DNA from: a gamma proteobacterium symbiont of Stewartia floridana
Lineage (GTDB): Bacteria > Pseudomonadota > Gammaproteobacteria > Chromatiales > Chromatiaceae
Assembly: GCA_003676145.1 (NCBI GenBank)
Contig: NAUB01000021.1
Location: 62,001 to 126,000, forward strand
Direction of reading: 5' to 3'
DNA length: 64,000 bases
Within the stretch, counting starts at the first letter, position 1, and each line of letters opens with the position of its first letter. Position numbers and translations under genes: made by a program. Positions 796 through 62,440 of the stretch are shown here, piece by piece. The notes beneath the pieces are model-generated. The model had not been told where the DNA came from. It was given only the letters and a program-made list of their open reading frames with translations, and ran no database searches.

Positions 796-1413
796 TCAAG
801 CCACGCTTTCCTCTATGGAAATGGGTTCCATGCCGTGCCACATACAATCGATCAGCTCATCGTAAAGCTCCGGCAGAGGGACATTCAGCACCCCATCCAG
901 CCGCAGATGAATCAAGCGTATCGCACCGCCAAAGACACCCGAGGCGACCACCCAGGGGTCCCCATCGCGGATCTCACCGGATTCCATTCCCCGCTGTACG
1001 ATATTGCGCATCGTCTTGAACGGGGTGGAACTGCAGATCGGAGGCTCATCCGGTAGAAACTCCTGGTGTTTGGCATGCAGTACGTAGGCGACGATATTAC
1101 GCTTGCTCTCGGTATACTCAAACAGCAGTGAGATAATCCGGTTGCAGCTCTCACGAAAGCTCAGGTTTTCGTCGATCACATCGGCAACCAGCTCTTCCAT
1201 CTCTCTGATCAAGTGGTAGTAGAGGGCTTTTGCGACCCCTTCCTTTCCCCCGAAATGGTTGTAGATCGAGCCGATACTGACATTCGCCATCTTCTGGATG
1301 TCATGAATCGATACATTGTGGTAACCGCGTTCGACAAACAGATCGAGGGCTGTACTGAGGATGCGGTCGTAGACCGGTAGATCTTCCGTCGCGGTTTTTT
1401 TCAAATGGAGCAT
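796..1413 (-). CDS. TetR/AcrR family transcriptional regulator
   Basis: 205 residues, a normal TetR length. Residues about 15-60 form the TetR_N helix-turn-helix, with the recognition segment VSIGSIYNHFGGKEGVAKAL. The rest is a helical ligand/dimer domain of no recognisable subfamily. The gene is transcribed away from the mtoX cluster and separated from it by about 850 bp. An 18-bp perfect palindrome in the mtoX promoter and a related site before the thioredoxin gene make this protein the obvious candidate repressor. The ligand could be a thiol or sulfide compound, but that is inference. No copy of the palindrome was seen in front of the regulator gene itself. The start ATG at 1411-1413 gives a typical N-terminus. 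Confidence 0.88.
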   Translation of the reverse strand: MLHLKKTATEDLPVYDRILSTALDLFVERGYHNVSIHDIQKMANVSIGSIYNHFGGKEGVAKALYYHLIREMEELVADVIDENLSFRESCNRIISLLFEYTESKRNIVAYVLHAKHQEFLPDEPPICSSTPFKTMRNIVQRGMESGEIRDGDPWVVASGVFGGAIRLIHLRLDGVLNVPLPELYDELIDCMWHGMEPISIEESVA

Positions 1414-2021
1414 GTGGGTACCTGCCAGGGCCGATTAAGGCAAATTCGATCAGCCCTGATGAAACAATGGTTTCCTTCAGCAAGGCGGAGTGGGTGATGT
1501 GTCGTGACTAAATAGGATGAATAGCTGGCACCAACCTGGGAGACGATCTCTCCGCCTCCCGAAGTTAGCGGTGAGTCGCTTGAAAAAGTATTAGATTCAG
1601 GTGCTTGTCGTTCATAGGGAACAGCCAAACTTATCTCCTCACGCCTTGATTGGCGTTTTCCAGACTCAACAGGCCCAATCGGATTCGTTATCTCAGGTCC
1701 TGTCATATGCCATTTTTGATCAATTATATCCAGTGTGGCCTAAGGTACAAAGGCACCCACCGGAGGGTTTTAATCTCGATTGCTGTGAATCTCCCGCCAT
1801 GCCGCGCCCCCTATGAAACAGCTCTATTACTCAGGATTAGCTGAGTTTTGGTGTCTCACCGTTTGCTACAGGAAGGCCCTGACTACGCTGATCCGCCGTT
1901 TGAAATGGGAATGCCGTTCTTTATGCGCCAAGCCTTATTCCCCAGGGGGCATCCCTGGGCTAATGCATCATGAAGTGAATCGGCATTTCCACCCTTTCAC
2001 CACCATAGCATAGTAAAAAAT
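1414..2021. other. Intergenic region between tetR and the mtoX promoter
   Basis: About 600 bases without a supported gene. Short open frames at 1601-2013 overlap one another, have no ribosome binding sites and resemble no family. The tetR promoter must lie near 1414-1500 on the reverse strand, but no clear -35/-10 pair stands out. Confidence 0.5.
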
Positions 2022-2050
2022 TTGACAAGAATGAATATTCATTCTACCTT
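2022..2050 (+). promoter_or_regulatory. mtoX promoter with 18-bp palindromic operator in the spacer
   Basis: A perfect -35 box TTGACA (2022-2027) is followed by 17 bases and a weak -10, TACCTT (2045-2050). The spacer is filled by AGAATGAATATTCATTCT (2028-2045), a perfect 18-bp palindrome. An operator placed there would block RNA polymerase, as expected for a TetR-type repressor. The same layout recurs at 6298. Assignment to the TetR protein at 796-1413 is inference. Confidence 0.75.
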
Positions 2051-2160
2051 CAATTTAGCCGCTTACCTCACTGCCAGCTGTATCGCAGCAGGACTACGGA
2101 GGGTCGAACGGCTCCTGTGCCTAGGGATCTTTGGCAATCAAGTTTTTTGAGTAGTACCCA

Positions 2161-2189
2161 CCCGGACTGGATATTCAGATCAGTCCGGG
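2161..2189 (+). other. Hairpin in the long mtoX 5' leader
   Basis: CCCGGACTG (2161-2169) pairs perfectly with CAGTCCGGG (2181-2189) around an 11-base loop. With transcription starting just after 2050, mtoX has a leader of roughly 210 bases, and this hairpin sits about 80 bases before the start codon. No T-run follows, so it is not a terminator. It may affect mRNA stability or translation. Confidence 0.5.
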
Positions 2190-2266
2190 GTTGGCCATCT
2201 GCATTGGCAGGGCTGAGGTAAGGCTGAATAGCAGTAAAAAAATTTTACCACTAGGAGGTTTTAATC

Positions 2267-3655
2267 ATGAGGCTGTTCAAAAATAAGCCTGCCAAATCCA
2301 TTGCCCTGGCATCAGCCCTGGCTGTTGGCACCACCCTGTTCGGTGCCACGCTTCCGCTGCAGGCCGACGAGACCTGTCAGTCACCCTACATGGCCAAGAT
2401 CGTCGGCCAGGAAGATTTTGTCTATGTCTGGACCTTGGGTATTGAAGGGATGGGCGATGGTCAGGACAAACTTGTCACTGTCGATGTCAATCCCAAATCG
2501 GCCAACTACGGCAAAGTGGTCGATTCACTTTCCGTTGGCGGACGCAATGAAGCGCACCATTCAGGATTTACCGACGATCGTCGCTACCTCTGGGCGGGCG
2601 GTCTCGATACCAACAAACTTTTCATCTTCGATGTCCATACAGACCCGGCAAAACCCACGCTGTATAAAGTCGTCACCGACTTTGTCGAGAAAAGCGGCGG
2701 TGTGGTCGGTCCCCATACGACCTACGCATTGCCTGGACGTATCATGATCACAGGTCTTTCAAACAATAAGGATCATGGTGGTCGTACCGCGTTGGTTGAA
2801 TACACCAATGAAGGCGAGTATATCGCCACCCATTGGATGCCCACCGACCAGAATCTGCGCGGTGCGGAGAAAACCGGCAAGTATGCCGATGGATACAACT
2901 ACGACCTTCGTGTACTGCCTCGCCGTAACATCATGCTCACCTCCTCATTTACCGGCTGGTCCAACTACATGATGGATTTCGGTAAAATGTTGCAGGATAA
3001 AGAGGCGATGAAGCGCTTCGGTAATACGGTGGTGCTTTGGGATCTGCACACTAAAAAGCCTAAAAAGGTTTTTGATGTTCCCGGTGCGCCACTGGAGATC
3101 CGTTGTGCCTGGCAACCCAACAACAACTGGTGCGTCACCACCACCGCTTTGACCTCCAAGATCTGGCTGATCTATGAGGATCAACAGGGTGAATGGCAGG
3201 CAGAGGCGGTTGCCGATGTGGGTGATGCCTCGAAAGTGCCTCTGCCGGTGGATATCTCGATCAGCTCTGATGACAGTCGCCTCTGGGTCAACACGTTTAT
3301 GGATGGTAAGACCCGGTTGTTCGATATGAGCAATCCCCATCAACCCAAACAGGTCTATGAGAAGGTGATCGGCCGGCAGGTCAACATGGCCTCATCCAGC
3401 TGGGACAGCACCCGTATCTACTACACCTCTTCACTGTTGGCCAACTGGGACAAGAAGGGTGACGACAATGAGCAGTACTTCAAGAGCTACGTCTGGAATG
3501 GAGAGCAGCTGGTTGAGAAGTTCGCGATCGATTTCAAGGCGCTCAAGCTTGGTCGGGCACATCAGATGCGCTTCGGTGCCTACTCCCTGTACGGTCAGGT
3601 CAGACCTGAGGATAGGCAGATCTCTGTAGCCGGTCTGGATACCACAGGCAAATAG
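2267..3655 (+). CDS. mtoX: Methanethiol oxidase, periplasmic selenium-binding-protein (SBP56) family
   Basis: 462 residues, the usual SBP56/MtoX length. A Sec signal peptide (about residues 1-33, ending LPLQA before DE) places it in the periplasm. Family members oxidise methanethiol with O2 to formaldehyde, hydrogen sulfide and H2O2 and need copper. Conserved histidine stretches typical of the family are visible (EAHHSGF, GPHTTYA, KDHGG, RAHQMRFG) and are candidate metal ligands. A strong AGGAGG lies about 10 bases before the ATG. The following genes encode SCO1-type copper chaperones and a MauG-type dihaem protein, the partners known from other mtoX loci. Expression is probably controlled from the palindromic promoter at 2022. 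Function rests on family and neighbourhood, since not all SBP56 proteins have been tested as oxidases. Confidence 0.9.
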   Translation: MRLFKNKPAKSIALASALAVGTTLFGATLPLQADETCQSPYMAKIVGQEDFVYVWTLGIEGMGDGQDKLVTVDVNPKSANYGKVVDSLSVGGRNEAHHSGFTDDRRYLWAGGLDTNKLFIFDVHTDPAKPTLYKVVTDFVEKSGGVVGPHTTYALPGRIMITGLSNNKDHGGRTALVEYTNEGEYIATHWMPTDQNLRGAEKTGKYADGYNYDLRVLPRRNIMLTSSFTGWSNYMMDFGKMLQDKEAMKRFGNTVVLWDLHTKKPKKVFDVPGAPLEIRCAWQPNNNWCVTTTALTSKIWLIYEDQQGEWQAEAVADVGDASKVPLPVDISISSDDSRLWVNTFMDGKTRLFDMSNPHQPKQVYEKVIGRQVNMASSSWDSTRIYYTSSLLANWDKKGDDNEQYFKSYVWNGEQLVEKFAIDFKALKLGRAHQMRFGAYSLYGQVRPEDRQISVAGLDTTGK

Positions 3656-3666
3656 TCTCTGTCCGA

Positions 3667-3731
3667 TGCGGATCTCTGATCGGGATCCGCAAATGACAAT
3701 CCCGGCTGCAACTCTGTGGGCCGGGATTGTC
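3667..3731 (+). other. Two tandem hairpins between mtoX and the SCO1-MauG gene
   Basis: TGCGGATC (3667-3674) pairs with GATCCGCA (3684-3691). GACAATCCCGGC (3695-3706) pairs perfectly with GCCGGGATTGTC (3720-3731). Neither is followed by a T-run. Twelve perfect base pairs between cotranscribed genes could stabilise the mtoX mRNA or partly terminate transcription, giving more MtoX than maturation proteins. The second arm ends 7 bases before the ribosome binding site of the next gene. Confidence 0.6.
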
Positions 3732-3748
3732 GGCGCCTGGGAGCATTT

Positions 3749-5707
3749 ATGGTCTTTCGATTTATCCAACTTTTTCTGATTGCGACAATACTCGTATCAA
3801 CGGTCGACGCCGATTCGGTCAACCCTGCGATCATCTCGGCACCGGGCTATGGTGATTTGGCTTACGAGTTGCCGGCGATCGGCAGTTATCAGCTGCCACC
3901 CTTGGGTGAGGCATCGAATGGTGAGGTTCTGATCGCCAAGGGTCAAACACGAACCCTGTATGAGCTTTTCGATGACAAATATGTGTTGCTGGCATTTATC
4001 TACAGTACGTGCAGTGATGTTAACGGTTGTCCGCTGACATCTCATGTCTTTTACAAGATCAAATCGGCAATGAAACGGGATCAAGTACTGGCCAGCAGGC
4101 TGAAATTGATCAGTCTCAGTTTCGATCCGGAAGTCGATACCCCATCGGTGATGGAGTTGTATGGCAATAACTTTCGATATGCAGGCAGCGCCGGTGAGTG
4201 GCAGTTCGTCACCACAGCCTCACAGCAGAGCCTGGATCCGATTCTGAAATCCTATAATCAGGTGATCTTACGTGAGACCGATAGCAGTGGCAGGACCAAT
4301 GTGGGATACAGTCATGTGCTCAGAGTATTCCTCATCGATCCAGAAAGGAATATTCGTAATATCTACAGTGTCGATTTCCTGCATCACGATCTGATCATCA
4401 ATGATCTGAAAACGATTCTTCAACAAGAGCAGGCAAGCGATCAGACCATCAAGCTGGCGATGGTCTCTCAGCAAACTTCCCAGCTCTCCAAACCGGGTGA
4501 CAATAAACTGGGATATGAACTCAGCAGCTACGTCACCGATTCACAGGATTTGGAGTTGAGAAAGGGTACCAAGGCTGACCTGCTGTCGATTGCCAGCAAT
4601 CCACCATTGGGACTGCCGGCGATCCCGGTGCCGGCTGACAATCCTCTGTCCCGGGAGAAGATCGATTTGGGTCGAAAGCTGTTTTACGACCGCCGGCTTT
4701 CGCTCAACGATACCTTCTCCTGTGCCATGTGCCATGTCCCGGAACAGGGATTTACCAGCAATGAGCTGGCCATGGCAGTGGGTATCGAAGGACGCTCGGT
4801 ACGACGCAACTCTCCGTCGGTATACAACTCGGCTTACAGTAATCTGCTGTTCCATGATGGCCGGGAGGAGAATCTGGAACAACAGGCCTGGGGACCTTTG
4901 CTGGCGAACAACGAAATGGCCAATCCATCGATCGGTTATGTGCTGAACAAAGTCCGTCAGATCGAGGACTACCGCGGTCTTTTTGAAGAAGCCTTTGATG
5001 GCAGAGGCGTGTCGATGGAGACACTGGGCATGGCGCTGGCCAGTTACCAGCGGGCTCTGGTTTCCGCCGACTCCCCATTCGACCGATGGCGTTATGCGGG
5101 CGATCAGACAGCGCTCTCCGATTCGGCTAAGCGGGGGTTTGAGATCTTTACCGGTAAGGCGGGATGCGTTGCCTGCCACTCAATCGGAGAACGCAGTGCC
5201 CTGTTCATGGATGATCAACTGCACAACACCGGCATCGGTTACCGGGAGTCGATGGGGATTTTTCCGGATAAACAGCCGGTGACAGTTGCCCCGGGGATTA
5301 CCATCGATATCGATCGTGCGATTATCGATCAGGTGGGGGAGAAACAAGCCACTGACGTGGGCCGCTATGAGGTGACGCAGAATCCTCATGATCGTTGGAA
5401 GTATAAGACCCCCAGTCTACGTAACGTGGCGCTTACCGCACCCTATATGCATAACGGTTCACTCAGTACCCTGCACGAAGTGGTCGATTTCTATGATCAG
5501 GGAGGGGTGCCCAATGAACTCCTCGACCCTCTGATCCGTCCGCTCGGTCTCTCATCACAGGAGAAATCGGATCTGGTTGATTTTATGCAGTCCCTCACCG
5601 GCAGTAATGTGGATACCCTGGTTGCGGATGCATTCGACGCACCGGTAGGCGATGTTGGGGAAGGGGATCCCAGCTGGGTGCATGGCAGCGAAGTGGAGGT
5701 GCGTTAG
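3749..5707 (+). CDS. SCO1-like domain fused to MauG/cytochrome c peroxidase-type dihaem domain
   Basis: 652 residues from the ATG at 3749, chosen because GGGAG lies 5 bases upstream and a signal peptide (MVFRFIQLFLIATILVSTVDA) follows directly. An in-frame ATG at 3716 lies inside a hairpin and lacks a binding site. Residues about 40-230 form a SCO1/thioredoxin-like domain with C88 and C94 (C-x5-C instead of the usual C-x3-C) and H189. Residues about 280-630 are a dihaem peroxidase/MauG domain with two haem sites, CAMCH (325-329) and CVACH (473-477), and a late PYMHNGS motif. In other mtoX loci SCO1 and MauG are separate genes; here they form one polypeptide. The likely role is copper delivery to and oxidative maturation of MtoX in the periplasm, or electron removal from it. 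It is directly followed by a second SCO1 gene. Confidence 0.85.
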   Translation: MVFRFIQLFLIATILVSTVDADSVNPAIISAPGYGDLAYELPAIGSYQLPPLGEASNGEVLIAKGQTRTLYELFDDKYVLLAFIYSTCSDVNGCPLTSHVFYKIKSAMKRDQVLASRLKLISLSFDPEVDTPSVMELYGNNFRYAGSAGEWQFVTTASQQSLDPILKSYNQVILRETDSSGRTNVGYSHVLRVFLIDPERNIRNIYSVDFLHHDLIINDLKTILQQEQASDQTIKLAMVSQQTSQLSKPGDNKLGYELSSYVTDSQDLELRKGTKADLLSIASNPPLGLPAIPVPADNPLSREKIDLGRKLFYDRRLSLNDTFSCAMCHVPEQGFTSNELAMAVGIEGRSVRRNSPSVYNSAYSNLLFHDGREENLEQQAWGPLLANNEMANPSIGYVLNKVRQIEDYRGLFEEAFDGRGVSMETLGMALASYQRALVSADSPFDRWRYAGDQTALSDSAKRGFEIFTGKAGCVACHSIGERSALFMDDQLHNTGIGYRESMGIFPDKQPVTVAPGITIDIDRAIIDQVGEKQATDVGRYEVTQNPHDRWKYKTPSLRNVALTAPYMHNGSLSTLHEVVDFYDQGGVPNELLDPLIRPLGLSSQEKSDLVDFMQSLTGSNVDTLVADAFDAPVGDVGEGDPSWVHGSEVEVR

Positions 5708-6274
5708 ATGACGCAGTCTGACAAAAAGCTCTGGCTGGTTCTGCTGTTCACTCTTCTGTCTGTCACCATGGCATCTGCCGCGACAGACGAGATCGGTGGG
5801 GATTTCACGCTTACGGACCACAACAACGATACCTTCAGACTGAGTCAGCTGCAGGGCAAACTGGTGATGCTCTCGTTCGGCTACACCTATTGTCCGGATA
5901 TCTGCCCCACCGAACTGGCTAAGCTGGCGGTGGTTTTCGATACCTTGAAAGCGCAGTCGGATCGTCTTCAGGGACTCTTCGTCTCCCTCGACCCGGATCG
6001 GGATACCCCGGCTGTTCTGAGTGATTACGTGGGTTACTTCAACAGTGGAATTGTTGGTCTGACCGGTACTGAAACCGCGGTGGATGAAGTGGCACGACAA
6101 TACCGGGTGAAGTATCAGCGCAATCACAAGGATGGGGGAGGCTACAGTATCGATCACTCAGCCAATCTCTATCTGATCGATCGGAAGGGGGCACTGGCGG
6201 CGGTTATTCCCTATGGTATGCCGGTTGAACACATCGTTGATGTGGTACGGGGCATGTTGTCCGGGGATGGTTGA
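5708..6274 (+). CDS. SCO1/SenC family copper chaperone
   Basis: 188 residues with a signal peptide or membrane anchor (about 1-25) and a thioredoxin-like SCO domain. The copper-binding C62-P-D-I-C66 and H150 (in YSIDHS) are intact, unlike the altered spacing in the fused SCO domain just upstream. The ATG abuts the stop codon of the fusion gene, and GGAGG lies in that gene's last codons, so the two are translationally coupled. Its family assembles copper centres (CuA of cytochrome oxidase in the classic case). Here the target is most simply MtoX. Two SCO domains in one locus may split copper delivery and disulfide reduction, which is inference. Confidence 0.9.
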   Translation: MTQSDKKLWLVLLFTLLSVTMASAATDEIGGDFTLTDHNNDTFRLSQLQGKLVMLSFGYTYCPDICPTELAKLAVVFDTLKAQSDRLQGLFVSLDPDRDTPAVLSDYVGYFNSGIVGLTGTETAVDEVARQYRVKYQRNHKDGGGYSIDHSANLYLIDRKGALAAVIPYGMPVEHIVDVVRGMLSGDG

Positions 6275-6297
6275 ACAAGATGTTGCCTCCCTGCGAA

Positions 6298-6326
6298 TTG
6301 ACAGAAATGAACATTCGTTCAATTCT
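6298..6326 (+). promoter_or_regulatory. Second TTGACA-plus-palindrome promoter, before the thioredoxin gene
   Basis: TTGACA at 6298-6303 is followed by GAAATGAACATTCGTTC. This aligns base for base with the spacer of the mtoX promoter (AGAATGAATATTCATTC), with 4 differences in 17. The core TGAACATTCGTTCA is an imperfect palindrome. A -10 (AATTCT, 6321-6326) is poor. The identical placement behind a perfect -35 box argues for control by the same regulator. Confidence 0.65.
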
Positions 6327-6380
6327 CTCTGAAGGTTCGACCAGAGAGGTTGACCGGTTTTCAGACGCTGGACGTATCCG

Positions 6381-6932
6381 GTGAATCCGTTATGTCTCCT
6401 CGGCAGCGCTCTATCCGGTTTAACCTGGTCGATCCTGTTTTTTTCGCTGCTGATCTCATTCTTCCCGAATCCCCTGGGGGCCGCTGAAAATCGGCTGACA
6501 CCGGTTGCGCCGATACCGGCACTGCCGTTCAGGCTGCAGAACCTTGATGGCGACTACAAAAAGCTCCGGGACTATCGGGGAAAGGTGGTATTGGTCAACT
6601 TCTGGGCCAGCTGGTGTACCCCATGCCGGGACGAACTGCCCTCCATGAACCGGGCCTGGAATCGTCTGAAATCGAGCGGGATGGCAATGCTGGCGATCAA
6701 TCTGGGGGAGGACAGGGAGGCGGTCAGCGCTTTCCTGCGCGACTATCCCATCGATTTCGAAGTGCTGATGGACGAACGGGGACGTATCAGTCAGCGTTGG
6801 CGAATCAAAGCGCTACCCACCACATTGTTGCTCAACAAACGGGGACAGATCATCTATCAGGTGATAGGGGAACGTGAATGGGATCAGCCGGCTTTGATTG
6901 AACTCATCGAATCACTCCAGTCTGGTTACTAG
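6381..6932 (+). CDS. TlpA/ResA-like thioredoxin-fold thiol-disulfide protein, membrane-anchored or periplasmic
   Basis: 183 residues starting at GTG (the nearby ATG at 6392 is out of frame). A hydrophobic segment (about 10-34) acts as signal or anchor. The redox motif W78-C-T-P-C82 is intact, and the cis-proline loop ALPTT follows at about 140. Proteins of this type reduce disulfides in the periplasm during cytochrome c or copper-centre assembly. Its own promoter shares the palindromic site of mtoX, so it probably belongs to the same regulon and may keep the SCO cysteines or the haem-binding cysteines reduced. It could instead be a general ResA-like protein. Confidence 0.82.
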   Translation: MNPLCLLGSALSGLTWSILFFSLLISFFPNPLGAAENRLTPVAPIPALPFRLQNLDGDYKKLRDYRGKVVLVNFWASWCTPCRDELPSMNRAWNRLKSSGMAMLAINLGEDREAVSAFLRDYPIDFEVLMDERGRISQRWRIKALPTTLLLNKRGQIIYQVIGEREWDQPALIELIESLQSGY

Positions 6933-7859: not shown

Positions 7860-10469
7860 GTGGCAAAGATGAAACTCACAGAAAAACTGTCAAAAATAGT
7901 TCTAACCCTGCTGGTTTCCGGGATCATCGCCGCATGTGGCGGCGGTGGCGGCGGTGGTTCGGATGATGATGACGGCGGTGATGGTGGCGATGGTGGCAGC
8001 TCCAGCGGCAGTATCAGCGGTCAGATATCAGTTCCCGGCTATGTGGTTACCGACAGTGACGTCAATGATGATCAAACCACGCCGGTCGCCAATCAACCTG
8101 CAAACAATGCGCAGTCCGTACCCAACCCGGTCAACATCGGTGGTTATGTGAATGTTGCCGGGACAGGGGCCGCCGGTAACCTGAGGGCTTCCGGTGACCC
8201 GGATGATTACTACCTGGTCAATCTGACTTCGGGACAGACCCTGGTACTGAATATCGGTGATATCGATGTGGGTGGTGTCGATCTGGATCTCTACCTGTTC
8301 GATGTGAACAATCTGAGCAATCCGGTAGCCAGTTCAATCGGTACATCGAAGTTTGAAACCATCGTGGTGCCATCCGATGGACAGTACTATGTCATCGTGC
8401 ACGCCTACAGCGGCGCCTCAAACTATCTCCTGTCGATTGGTTTGACCTCCTCTTCAATCCTTCCGCAAGGTGGCATGAGCATCACCGATGATTTTGTGCC
8501 CGGTGAGGTACTGGTGAAGTTCGATAGTGCTTCCGCCCAGGCGAAAGCCCTGGATACCGGCCTGAGCCACTACAGCTTCAGCCAATCTGCCGAGAATGAG
8601 ATCGGCATCCAGCGGCTGACTCTGAATGATCAGTTCGTCAGTCGTGCAGCGGCCCGGCCTGGTATCTATGCTCAGATGGACAGCGAAGCCCAGCTGAAGC
8701 TGGATACCATCATGGCGATCAAAGAGCTCAACCAGCGCAGTGACGTGGTCTATGCTCAGCCCAACTATATCTATCACGCCTCGGCGACACCGAATGACGA
8801 GTATTACAGTCTTCAGTGGCACTACAATCAGATCAACCTGCCTCAGGCCTGGGATATCACCACCGGTGATACCAGCGTCATCGTATCGGTCATCGATACC
8901 GGTGTGTTGTTGAACCATCCTGATCTTAGCGGTCAGCTGGTGAACGGTTATGACTTCATCTCCGATGCGGGCAATGCAAACGACGGCGACGGCATCGATG
9001 CCAATCCGGATGATGCCGGTGACGAGATTCAGAATGGCGTCTCCAGTTTTCACGGTACCCACGTGGCCGGAACCGTGGCCGCCAGCAGTAACAACTCCAC
9101 TGGTGTGGCCGGTGTGGCCTGGAACGTGCGCATCATGCCGATCCGTGTGCTGGGTAAGCAGGGCGGTTTCAGTAGCGATATCATCGAGGGTATTCTCTTC
9201 TCAGCCGGCCTCTCCAATGCTTCCGGAACGACACCGAGCCAGAGAGCGGATGTCATCAACATGAGTCTGGGTGGCGCTTCTCCCGACCAGGCCAGTTTTG
9301 ATGCGATCACGGCGGCGCGCAACGCCGGGGTTATCGTGATTGCCGCAGCGGGTAATGAAAACACCTCACAACTGGCCTATCCCGCATCCTATACCGGTGT
9401 GGTCTCGGTGAGCTCGGTTGATCAAAGCCGTACCCGGGCACCCTATTCGAATTACGGTACCGAGATCGATGTGGCGGCACCTGGTGGTAACACTCAGGCT
9501 GACGTGGATGGTGACGGTCGAGCTGACGGTGTTCTCAGTACCCTGGGTGATGACTCTCAGGGTGGCACCAGCTTTACCTATAACTTCTACCAGGGCACCT
9601 CGATGGCGGCGCCTCATGTGGCGGGTGTTGCTGCATTGATGAAATCTGTCTACGCGGGTCTGACGCCGGCCGAGTTCGACAGCATGCTCTCCTCCGGGGA
9701 GCTGACGAACGATATCGGTAACAGTGGCCGGGACGATCTCTACGGGCACGGTCTGATCGATGCCTACAAAGCCGTTGTGGCCGCACAACAGCGGGGTGGT
9801 GGTAATACACCCACGGATCCCGCGCTGAGTGTCAATCCTCAGAGCCTCAACTTCTCTAACTCACTGCAGTCCACTTCACTGTTCGTGGAAGAGATCGGCG
9901 GTTCTGTCGGAACGGTCCAGATTACTGAAAACATCTCCTGGTTGTCGGTTGCGGCAAATCAGGTGAATGGTTCAGGTATCGGCAGTTACACCGTCAGTGT
10001 CGATCGTAGTGGACTCTCGCCGGCAACCTATACCGGTACGATTCAGGTGAGTGCAGGAACCTCCAGCGTCGATGTGAACGTGATCATGCAGGTACTGGAT
10101 AGTTCGATTAGCGGAGATGCCGGTCGTCACTACGTACTGCTGGTCAATAATGCAACCAGTCAGCCGGTACAGCAGGATGAGGTGAATACCAATACTGGTA
10201 GCGGCAGTTACAGCTTCAGTAATGTAAGTTCGGGTGACTACTACATCGTTGCCGGTTCAGACATGGATATGGATAACCTGATCTGTGACAACGGTGAGTC
10301 CTGTGGTGCCTATCCCACCCTCTCCCAACCCAATGTGGTTACGGTTGGGTCAGGAGCAGTCAACGGGCTGGATTTTTCAGCAACCTATGAGTATCAGACG
10401 CCAACTTCCAGCGCACTCTCTGCAGAAGAGAGCGTTCAAGAGCTGATGGTCTACCCACGTCAGGACTGA
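7860..10469 (+). CDS. Large lipoprotein subtilisin-like serine protease (S8) with PPC and Ig-like domains
   Basis: 869 residues starting at GTG, with GGGG about 9 bases upstream. A lipobox ends IIAAC (C26), followed by a Gly/Asp/Ser linker, so the protein is lipid-anchored. Residues about 85-195 resemble a pre-peptidase PPC beta domain (DPDDYYLVNL). About 215-305 resembles an inhibitor I9-like propeptide (VPGEVLVKF to YAQPNYIY). The S8 catalytic domain follows, with D346 (VIDTG), H398 (HGTHVAGT) and S581 (GTSMAAPHVAG), all intact. The C-terminal part has a BACON-like beta domain (about 655-745) and a last beta domain with paired cysteines (CDNGESC). It acts at the outer membrane or cell surface. 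The next gene, 11 bases away, encodes a PrcB-like lipoprotein, so the two probably form a complex. Confidence 0.9.
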   Translation: MAKMKLTEKLSKIVLTLLVSGIIAACGGGGGGGSDDDDGGDGGDGGSSSGSISGQISVPGYVVTDSDVNDDQTTPVANQPANNAQSVPNPVNIGGYVNVAGTGAAGNLRASGDPDDYYLVNLTSGQTLVLNIGDIDVGGVDLDLYLFDVNNLSNPVASSIGTSKFETIVVPSDGQYYVIVHAYSGASNYLLSIGLTSSSILPQGGMSITDDFVPGEVLVKFDSASAQAKALDTGLSHYSFSQSAENEIGIQRLTLNDQFVSRAAARPGIYAQMDSEAQLKLDTIMAIKELNQRSDVVYAQPNYIYHASATPNDEYYSLQWHYNQINLPQAWDITTGDTSVIVSVIDTGVLLNHPDLSGQLVNGYDFISDAGNANDGDGIDANPDDAGDEIQNGVSSFHGTHVAGTVAASSNNSTGVAGVAWNVRIMPIRVLGKQGGFSSDIIEGILFSAGLSNASGTTPSQRADVINMSLGGASPDQASFDAITAARNAGVIVIAAAGNENTSQLAYPASYTGVVSVSSVDQSRTRAPYSNYGTEIDVAAPGGNTQADVDGDGRADGVLSTLGDDSQGGTSFTYNFYQGTSMAAPHVAGVAALMKSVYAGLTPAEFDSMLSSGELTNDIGNSGRDDLYGHGLIDAYKAVVAAQQRGGGNTPTDPALSVNPQSLNFSNSLQSTSLFVEEIGGSVGTVQITENISWLSVAANQVNGSGIGSYTVSVDRSGLSPATYTGTIQVSAGTSSVDVNVIMQVLDSSISGDAGRHYVLLVNNATSQPVQQDEVNTNTGSGSYSFSNVSSGDYYIVAGSDMDMDNLICDNGESCGAYPTLSQPNVVTVGSGAVNGLDFSATYEYQTPTSSALSAEESVQELMVYPRQD

Positions 10470-61776: not shown

Positions 61777-62440
61777 CCTCTCCATTACCCATCTTATTCT
61801 GAACGCCAGTCCGGTGGTGCAGTTCGTGATTGCCTTGCTGGTGTTTGCCTCACTCAGCTCCTGGAGCATGATCTTCGATCGCATGCGGGTGCTGAAGAGC
61901 GCCATGAGAGATGCGGACGAATTCGAAAGCCGCTTCTGGTCGGGTGGTGACCTGGCAGAACTCTACCGCCAGCTGGAACGGGAAACGGATGATGAATCGG
62001 GGATGGCCTCGGTGTTTCGCGCCGGGTTTCGTGAGTTTGCCCGATTGAGAACCAAGGGTCACAAGGATCCGATGGCGATGGTGCAGGGGGCACAACGCTC
62101 GATGCGGGTCTCTCTGAACCGGGAGGTCGATCGTCTTGAGAGTCATCTCTCAACCCTGGCAACCATCGGTTCCACCAGCCCTTATGTGGGGCTCTTCGGT
62201 ACCGTTTGGGGCATCATGAACTCGTTTACCGCGCTGGGTAATGTCAAGCAGGCCACCCTGGCGCTGGTCGCACCGGGTATCGCCGAAGCCCTGATCGCCA
62301 CGGCGATCGGGCTATTTGCGGCGATACCTGCGGTAATCGCCTACAACCGCTACTCCAACGATGTGGAACGACTGAATAACCGTTACGACGACTTCGTGGA
62401 AGAGTTTGCAACCATCCTGCAACGGCAGGCTGTATCCTGA
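61766..62440 (+). CDS. tolQ: TolQ inner-membrane protein of the Tol-Pal system
   Basis: 224 residues from the ATG at 61766, preferred over an in-frame TTG at 61760 because GGAG lies 7 bases before the ATG. It overlaps ybgC by 11 bases. Three membrane helices (about 15-35, 135-160, 170-190), with the stretch GLFGTVWGIMNSFTALG typical of TolQ/ExbB. With TolR it forms the proton-driven motor that energises TolA for outer-membrane constriction. Confidence 0.96.
   Translation: MSTDLSITHLILNASPVVQFVIALLVFASLSSWSMIFDRMRVLKSAMRDADEFESRFWSGGDLAELYRQLERETDDESGMASVFRAGFREFARLRTKGHKDPMAMVQGAQRSMRVSLNREVDRLESHLSTLATIGSTSPYVGLFGTVWGIMNSFTALGNVKQATLALVAPGIAEALIATAIGLFAAIPAVIAYNRYSNDVERLNNRYDDFVEEFATILQRQAVS

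Follow-up and report, generated by a model that had tools for sequence, protein, structure and literature searches.

A TetR-family regulator divergent from mtoX in a symbiont of Stewartia floridana probably belongs to a formaldehyde/one-carbon regulon

Methanethiol oxidase (MtoX) is a copper-dependent enzyme with formaldehyde as a product (PMC5739008; known systems are given here as described in the portions of the cited papers available to us). In Ruegeria pomeroyi, Eyice et al. described the arrangement mtoX-SCO1-mauG with an IclR regulator adjoining mtoX, and induction by methanethiol, dimethylsulfoniopropionate (DMSP), and methylmercaptopropionate (MMPA) was reported (PMC5739008). In Methylophaga thiooxydans, mtoX, a sco1/mauG fusion, and a SCO1-type metallochaperone labelled tlpA are followed by pdo, sqrB, and sulP (PMC6548844). 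We analyzed a stretch of 64,000 nucleotides (the window, positions 62001–126000 of contig C24 in a 4.55-Mb genome of 97% completeness) from a gammaproteobacterial symbiont of Stewartia floridana, in which a gene encoding a TetR-family regulator is divergent from an mtoX cluster. Comparison with related genomes makes it likely that this regulator is the local member of a TetR clade governing a formaldehyde/one-carbon (C1) regulon that would be induced by formaldehyde, or by the adduct it forms with glutathione, and not by methanethiol.

The original prediction had regarded the grouping of MtoX, SCO1, and MauG as known, which both species bear out, and had considered the added thioredoxin and the TetR regulator to be new. 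A separate ResA-like protein is not described in the available portion of the Methylophaga paper (PMC6548844). A regulator adjoining mtoX was already known from R. pomeroyi. That regulator belongs to the IclR and not to the TetR family, and no operator common with formaldehyde genes is described in the available portion of that report (PMC5739008). The word TetR is absent from the text of the Methylophaga paper.

The formaldehyde regulators named in the available portion of a 2022 review are FlhRS, HxlR, TtmR, AdhR, FrmR, and RamAB/GlxR (PMC8879981). Escherichia coli FrmR represses the glutathione-dependent formaldehyde oxidation genes frmAB and senses formaldehyde through a Pro2-Cys35 bridge, and HxlR uses a Cys-Lys bridge in helix 1 (PMC8879981). 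The system proposed below would resemble FrmR-frmAB in its repressed genes and its Pro2-Cys pair, but FrmR is a CsoR/RcnR-family protein, whereas the TetR clade has another operator and also covers the formaldehyde-making xoxF and mtoX. FlhRS of Paracoccus denitrificans likewise places formaldehyde production and consumption genes under one system, but it is a two-component system and not a one-component TetR regulator (PMC8879981). CcrR of Methylobacterium extorquens, also a TetR-family protein in a methylotroph, is described in the text available as activating an ethylmalonyl-CoA pathway gene instead. Neither the 2022 review (PMC8879981) nor the EfgA paper mentions the word TetR in its text. 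Among the matches listed from the open-licence literature, no paper linked TetR with mtoX, xoxF, frmA/fghA, or formaldehyde, and no TetR regulator was reported for mtoX or methanethiol oxidase; the TetR proteins mentioned in the available parts of PMC5382811, PMC12797532, and PMC3486813 are unrelated to formaldehyde genes. The TetR clade seems to be undescribed in the literature found.

The layout proposed by the original prediction was confirmed by reading of the open reading frames and by Pfam and NCBIfam profile matches, all five genes being found in place. The TetR gene (796..1413, minus strand) encodes 205 amino acids with an N-terminus of the form MLHL...YD and matches the Pfam families TetR_N (PF00440, helix-turn-helix; 54.8 bits, cut-off 24) and TetR_C_10 (PF16295, the C-terminal ligand/dimer domain; 29.7 bits, barely above the cut-off of 28). 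An FrmR identity (CsoR/RcnR, DUF156) was not recovered for this protein, for which Pfam returned TetR families only and NCBIfam TetR-type regulators but no FrmR. Its closest named records, 96–99% identical, are from Candidatus Thiodiazotropha (lucinid clam symbionts) and one Chromatiales metagenome-assembled genome (MAG), and on this basis we assign the window to the genus Thiodiazotropha. On the plus strand follow mtoX (2267..3655; SBP56 family, NCBIfam equivalog NF052453, 785.2 bits, cut-off 650), a gene for a fusion of SCO1 with a di-haem MauG/MbnH-like protein containing two CxxCH motifs (3716..5707; start GTG at 3716 or ATG at 3749), a SCO1/SenC copper chaperone gene (5708..6274), and the gene for a TlpA/ResA-like thioredoxin with a WCTPC motif (6381..6932).

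Two promoter-like elements on the plus strand, each with a predicted operator, are built alike: TTGACA is followed by 17 nt of spacer, which a palindrome akin to GAATGAAYRTTCATTC occupies, and then by a weak −10 hexamer (3/6 matches). The first, before mtoX (2022..2050), reads TTGACA-AGAATGAATATTCATTC-TACCTT, its spacer containing GAATGAATATTCATTC, and a perfect 18-bp palindrome spans 2028–2045; the second, before tlpA (6298..6326), reads TTGACA-GAAATGAACATTCGTTC-AATTCT, with AAATGAACATTCGTTC in the spacer and an imperfect palindrome. Since a sigma-70 scan called neither site as a promoter, their promoter function is only presumed. The three top sites of the whole genome are these two and a third, outside the window and overlooked by the original prediction, which reads TTGACT-GAAATGAACATTCATTT-TATGTT and precedes the gene for a DsrE/DsrF-family protein. 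The genome also encodes a pyrroloquinoline quinone (PQQ) dehydrogenase on contig C18, which shares 42% identity with the XoxF query, and GshA on contig C13; among the matches listed, no site lay on those contigs. Loose palindrome matching was uninformative, giving 15 matches at ≤2 mismatches in the window against 20.1 expected, and, over the whole genome, nine on each strand against 7 and 6 for a reversed control. The window sites are nevertheless not chance palindromes, as is shown by their conservation across relatives; loose matching confined to the window or to its genome would have missed this.

Forty MtoX matches were found in 190 relatives (own genome included), and a site was counted when at least 14 of 16 positions matched within 400 bp upstream, with 200 shuffles per locus. 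The predicted palindromic operator, overlapping a promoter-like element, was present at all 22 mtoX loci with an adjacent TetR gene, and none of the 200 shuffles reached the score in any of them. Eighteen mtoX genes lacked an adjacent TetR gene; two of these were cut by contig ends and the other 16 all scored ≤11/16, including second copies in four genomes whose first copy has a site. The proposal that the two sites and the TetR protein form a regulon thus gained support from 22/22 loci against 0/16. Four congeners (L111–L114) have such a second, diverged mtoX, 77–81% identical and without TetR gene or operator, so that the mtoX copies may be regulated differently. A search with TTGNNANNAAYGAAYRTTCRTT at ≤1 mismatch gave 65 sites, spread over 33 of the 190 genomes; the reversed pattern gave 10. 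Of these sites, 40 were zero-mismatch promoter-operators. They were confined to 22 genomes, every one of which has a TetR match (E ≤ 1e-20), and none fell in the 150 genomes without a TetR match (counts summed from the match lists); nor was a site found in three congeners without mtoX or TetR match (G007, G014, G017). The link between the TetR clade, its predicted operator, and the target genes is strong comparative evidence.

The same TetR clade and operator were also found upstream of frmA-fghA, gfa, an XoxF-type methanol dehydrogenase gene, a SoxYZ-like carrier gene, gshA, and dsrE. FrmA, FghA, Gfa, GshA, and the SoxYZ-like protein were named by NCBIfam equivalogs above cut-off, whereas XoxF is a label given from context, the NCBIfam subfamily model naming only a methanol/ethanol-family PQQ dehydrogenase. 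The thioredoxin is a recurrent member of the regulon in the window's genus. Several congeners have, behind the second operator, a run of tlpA, a membrane-like protein gene, frmA, and fghA, some of these runs ending in dsrE. The membrane-like protein of several congeners (144 amino acids, L163 939–1373) lies between tlpA and frmA and has no Pfam or NCBIfam match. An operator precedes gshA in five congeners, in all of which NCBIfam or Pfam identified a glutamate-cysteine ligase, and in three of which a formate dehydrogenase alpha gene is near. Two genomes without an mtoX match (G124 and G189) have the operator before frmA-fghA, and G189 has another before the XoxF-type PQQ dehydrogenase gene, beside genes for a SoxYZ-like carrier and formate-tetrahydrofolate ligase. 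Of 30 frmA loci compared (38 genomes matched), only those of these two genomes, at which frmA is the first gene of an operon linked to TetR, carried a site (15/16); the remaining loci scored ≤12/16, and one had no upstream DNA.

A TetR profile scan of named genomes matched 89 relatives, from which 80 loci were kept, spanning Thiodiazotropha, Sedimenticola, Thiothrix, Thiolinea, Cocleimonas, Leucothrix, Granulosicoccaceae, a Methylomonas MAG, and others. Labelled by the genes within 2.6 kb, with precedence given to mtoX, 35 were mtoX loci, 28 frmA/fghA/gfa, three xoxF/soxYZ, three metF, and 11 other. Sites of at least 14/16 occurred at 67 of the 80 loci (101 sites, against 0–2 in five shuffles), which, with the 22/22 conservation above, led us to reject chance palindromes. 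Promoter-type sites, with at least 5/6 matches in the −35 hexamer, numbered 73, against 0 in shuffles, and 68 preceded regulon genes (MtoX 30, FrmA 19, TlpA 10, XoxF 4, DsrE 2, Gfa 2, FghA 1). Of the other five, two lay close to contig starts (L242, L266) and one preceded a GFA-domain gene (L247, with a PF04828 counterpart in L243). The last two stood before an unexpected target, an arsenite-oxidase-type pair (L243 6733 and L247 16400), of which both L243 subunits were above NCBIfam cut-off and those of L247 were assigned by resemblance. Thirteen of the 80 were chosen for a whole-genome search; of their 19 sites, 18 preceded regulon genes (frmA 7, mtoX 4, xoxF 3, and one each for tlpA, dsrE, soxYZ, and gfa) and one was stray, with four reversed-pattern matches as the noise level and two genomes without a site. 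All four sites of the Methylomonas MAG preceded frmA, xoxF, soxYZ, or gfa, and those of Thiothrix eikelboomii xoxF and frmA. Comparison thus shows the predicted operator before formaldehyde-producing (mtoX, xoxF), formaldehyde-consuming (gfa, frmA, fghA), and glutathione-supply (gshA) genes.

These data do not support a regulator dedicated to methanethiol oxidase, as the original prediction had it, since at 45 of the 80 named loci mtoX is absent from the surrounding 2.6 kb. Of the 45, 28 carry frmA/fghA/gfa and three xoxF, and most share the operator. Occurrence of the TetR gene without mtoX had been named in advance as fatal to the regulon idea. Such loci exist, and the idea survives in a wider form because formaldehyde is shared across the targets and methanethiol is not. 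The earlier suggestion that the cell senses methanethiol or its products fits if formaldehyde is the product concerned. The TetR switch thus probably serves the handling of formaldehyde and not methanethiol alone.

In a 92-row tree with midpoint root, the mtoX-, frmA-, and xoxF-linked regulators fell in one group of 78, and 14 other homologues, nine of them beside dsrE, split off at 100/99. Sources and sinks of formaldehyde seem to have come under this switch many times. A separate TetR group, 43–49% identical, stands beside a DsrE-like gene in nine of 12 loci (L097–L100, L103, L105–L108), and several of its loci carry a related palindrome, GAACGAACGTTCGTTC, forming a TetR-DsrE module.

A dedicated sensor, with methanethiol or its disulfide as ligand and methanethiol oxidation as its sole target, is unlikely. 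It would account for the presence of mtoX near TetR in 35 of the 80 named loci and in 19/19 TetR-carrying genomes of the window's genus, and the changed N-terminal signature of the window sub-clade, where frmA was not found, could mark a new inducer. However, members of this clade, together with the operator, also stand ahead of frmA, gfa, and xoxF where mtoX is missing from the locus, the mtoX label requires 12 changes on the tree, at least seven of them forced by well-supported branches, and induction of xoxF or gfa is not explained by methanethiol.

From methanethiol, MtoX also yields sulfide and hydrogen peroxide, and a sensor of sulfur or thiols (sulfide, persulfide, or glutathione status) could likewise be considered, DsrE and SoxYZ being sulfur carriers and gshA making glutathione. 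We judge it similarly unlikely. The operator before dsrE, the distant homologues beside dsrE, and the SoxYZ-like carrier at xoxF loci would suit it, but promoter-type sites other than those of mtoX and tlpA lie mostly upstream of frmA or xoxF, the SoxYZ-like family concerned is named as quinoprotein-dehydrogenase-associated (TIGR04557), and the dsrE-linked homologues form the separate group at 100/99, with palindromes that differ in several. A FadR-like acyl-CoA sensor is very improbable, since, despite best matches among solved structures that include fatty acid metabolism regulator chains, a weak NCBIfam FadR score, and a Bacillus FadR operator that we take to resemble the TetR operator, the FadR equivalog scored 44 bits against a cut-off of 200 and no fatty-acid gene was found among the identified targets.

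For the formaldehyde/C1 regulon, the proposed course of events is that a TetR dimer would bind GAATGAAYRTTCATTC, which is located between −35 and −10, and would thereby obstruct RNA polymerase at mtoX-scoMauG-sco1 and tlpA and, outside the window, at dsrE. Because it is the small molecule connecting the major targets, formaldehyde, or S-hydroxymethylglutathione, is the inducer that we infer for such a repressor.

An N-terminal arm is seldom as conserved as the one found in this clade. The frmA-linked regulators start with MPYL in 28/28 cases and have Cys16 in 27/28, with Pro13 and Asp15 invariant; their pairwise identity has a median of 54%. An MP start with Cys16 was found in 60 of 81 rows (the 80 named loci and our own), most members beginning MPYL...DC. 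Cys16 was present in 54 of 56 named genomes with frmA against 8 of 22 without it (Fisher p 3e-8, which is not a real probability because the rows are related); L259 and L287 were excluded from this count, L285, a split gene, was scored as lacking Cys16, and absence of frmA from a draft genome is weak. In the window's genus, 5/5 genomes with frmA have MPYL and Cys16, and Cys16 occurs in two of 13 without frmA and with an intact TetR gene. A fourteenth, the Thiodiazotropha MAG G011, has Cys16 in a TetR match split over two overlapping pieces (L109 2155–2704), perhaps a pseudogene or an assembly error, and its operator is kept. The sub-clade of the window has MLHL...D16 (own row and L208–L211), and its sister group (L212–L216) has MPHL or MPYL with Lys, Ser, or Cys at position 16; frmA was not found in any of these ten genomes.

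Because the N-terminus is conserved and FrmR and HxlR sense by bridging residues, we propose that formaldehyde may be sensed by a methylene bridge between Pro2 and Cys16, as in FrmR. More tentatively, a TetR formaldehyde sensor may have arisen independently of FrmR with the same chemistry, the dimer leaving DNA once the free N-terminal Pro2 and Cys16, which precede the DNA-binding helices, are bridged, and may couple methanethiol, XoxF-type methanol, and glutathione-dependent formaldehyde oxidation in sulfur-oxidising gammaproteobacteria, with lineages that lost frmA, that of the window included, having lost the sensing pair and kept the operators. In the window sub-clade, Pro2 and Cys16 would have decayed, and its repressor may sense through other residues, respond to a changed inducer, or be a weakened relic.

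Several observations weigh against the formaldehyde/C1 regulon. The window TetR has Leu2 and Asp16, and so lacks the FrmR-like pair of N-terminal Pro2 and bridging Cys, although Cys90 and Cys127 are present, and start codons, hence Pro2 itself, were assigned from conservation. FrmA and Fae were not found on search of the window genome, nor was FtfL in a search that had no positive control, so that the formaldehyde logic is weakest at the window's own locus; an operator before glutathione-dependent formaldehyde oxidation genes occurs in many relatives but was not found in this genome, and dsrE and tlpA suit sulfur equally with formaldehyde. Thirteen of the 80 named loci have no site. They comprise all three metF-linked loci, the frmA-linked L252, L265, and L283 (Cys16 occurs in two of these three), the mtoX-linked L271 and L277, and five more. 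Sites also precede genes without a clear C1 role (UbiA-family in L239 and L241, arsenite-oxidase-type in L243 and L247), and the reversed-pattern controls were not empty (10 matches against 65, and 4 against 19). The proposals of repression, of a formaldehyde inducer, and of a Pro2-Cys16 mechanism are thus weakest for the window's own protein.

In the Sedimenticola loci L228, L229, and L234, the TetR homologue follows metK-ahcY-metF and has neither operator nor Cys16, which is why it appears to have been reassigned. A methanopterin route replacing a lost frmA was considered for the window genome and rejected, since Fae was not found there; in the window's genus, Fae occurs in 12 of 22 genomes with no clean split by frmA. 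The distance from the TetR start to the first operator (1413–2022), which the original prediction did not mention, is about 600 bp in the window and roughly 30–120 bp in many relatives. A leader-like repeat lies near this gap (1757–1775 and 2248–2266, 79%), and an RNA element was rejected, no Rfam match at E ≤ 0.1 being found across 1380–2300. Farther along the window, a large secreted-looking protein with subtilisin-like motifs picked out by eye is encoded at 7860–10469, after a greB-like gene.

If our interpretation is correct, sulfur-oxidising gammaproteobacteria, among them lucinid symbionts, Thiothrix, and Sedimenticola, would treat methanethiol and methanol as sources of formaldehyde under one repressor, and a TetR family would join the formaldehyde regulators. 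Such a protein may serve one-carbon engineering as a compact biosensor of formaldehyde, and the clade would provide a natural series of the decay of sensor residues where the pathway is missing.

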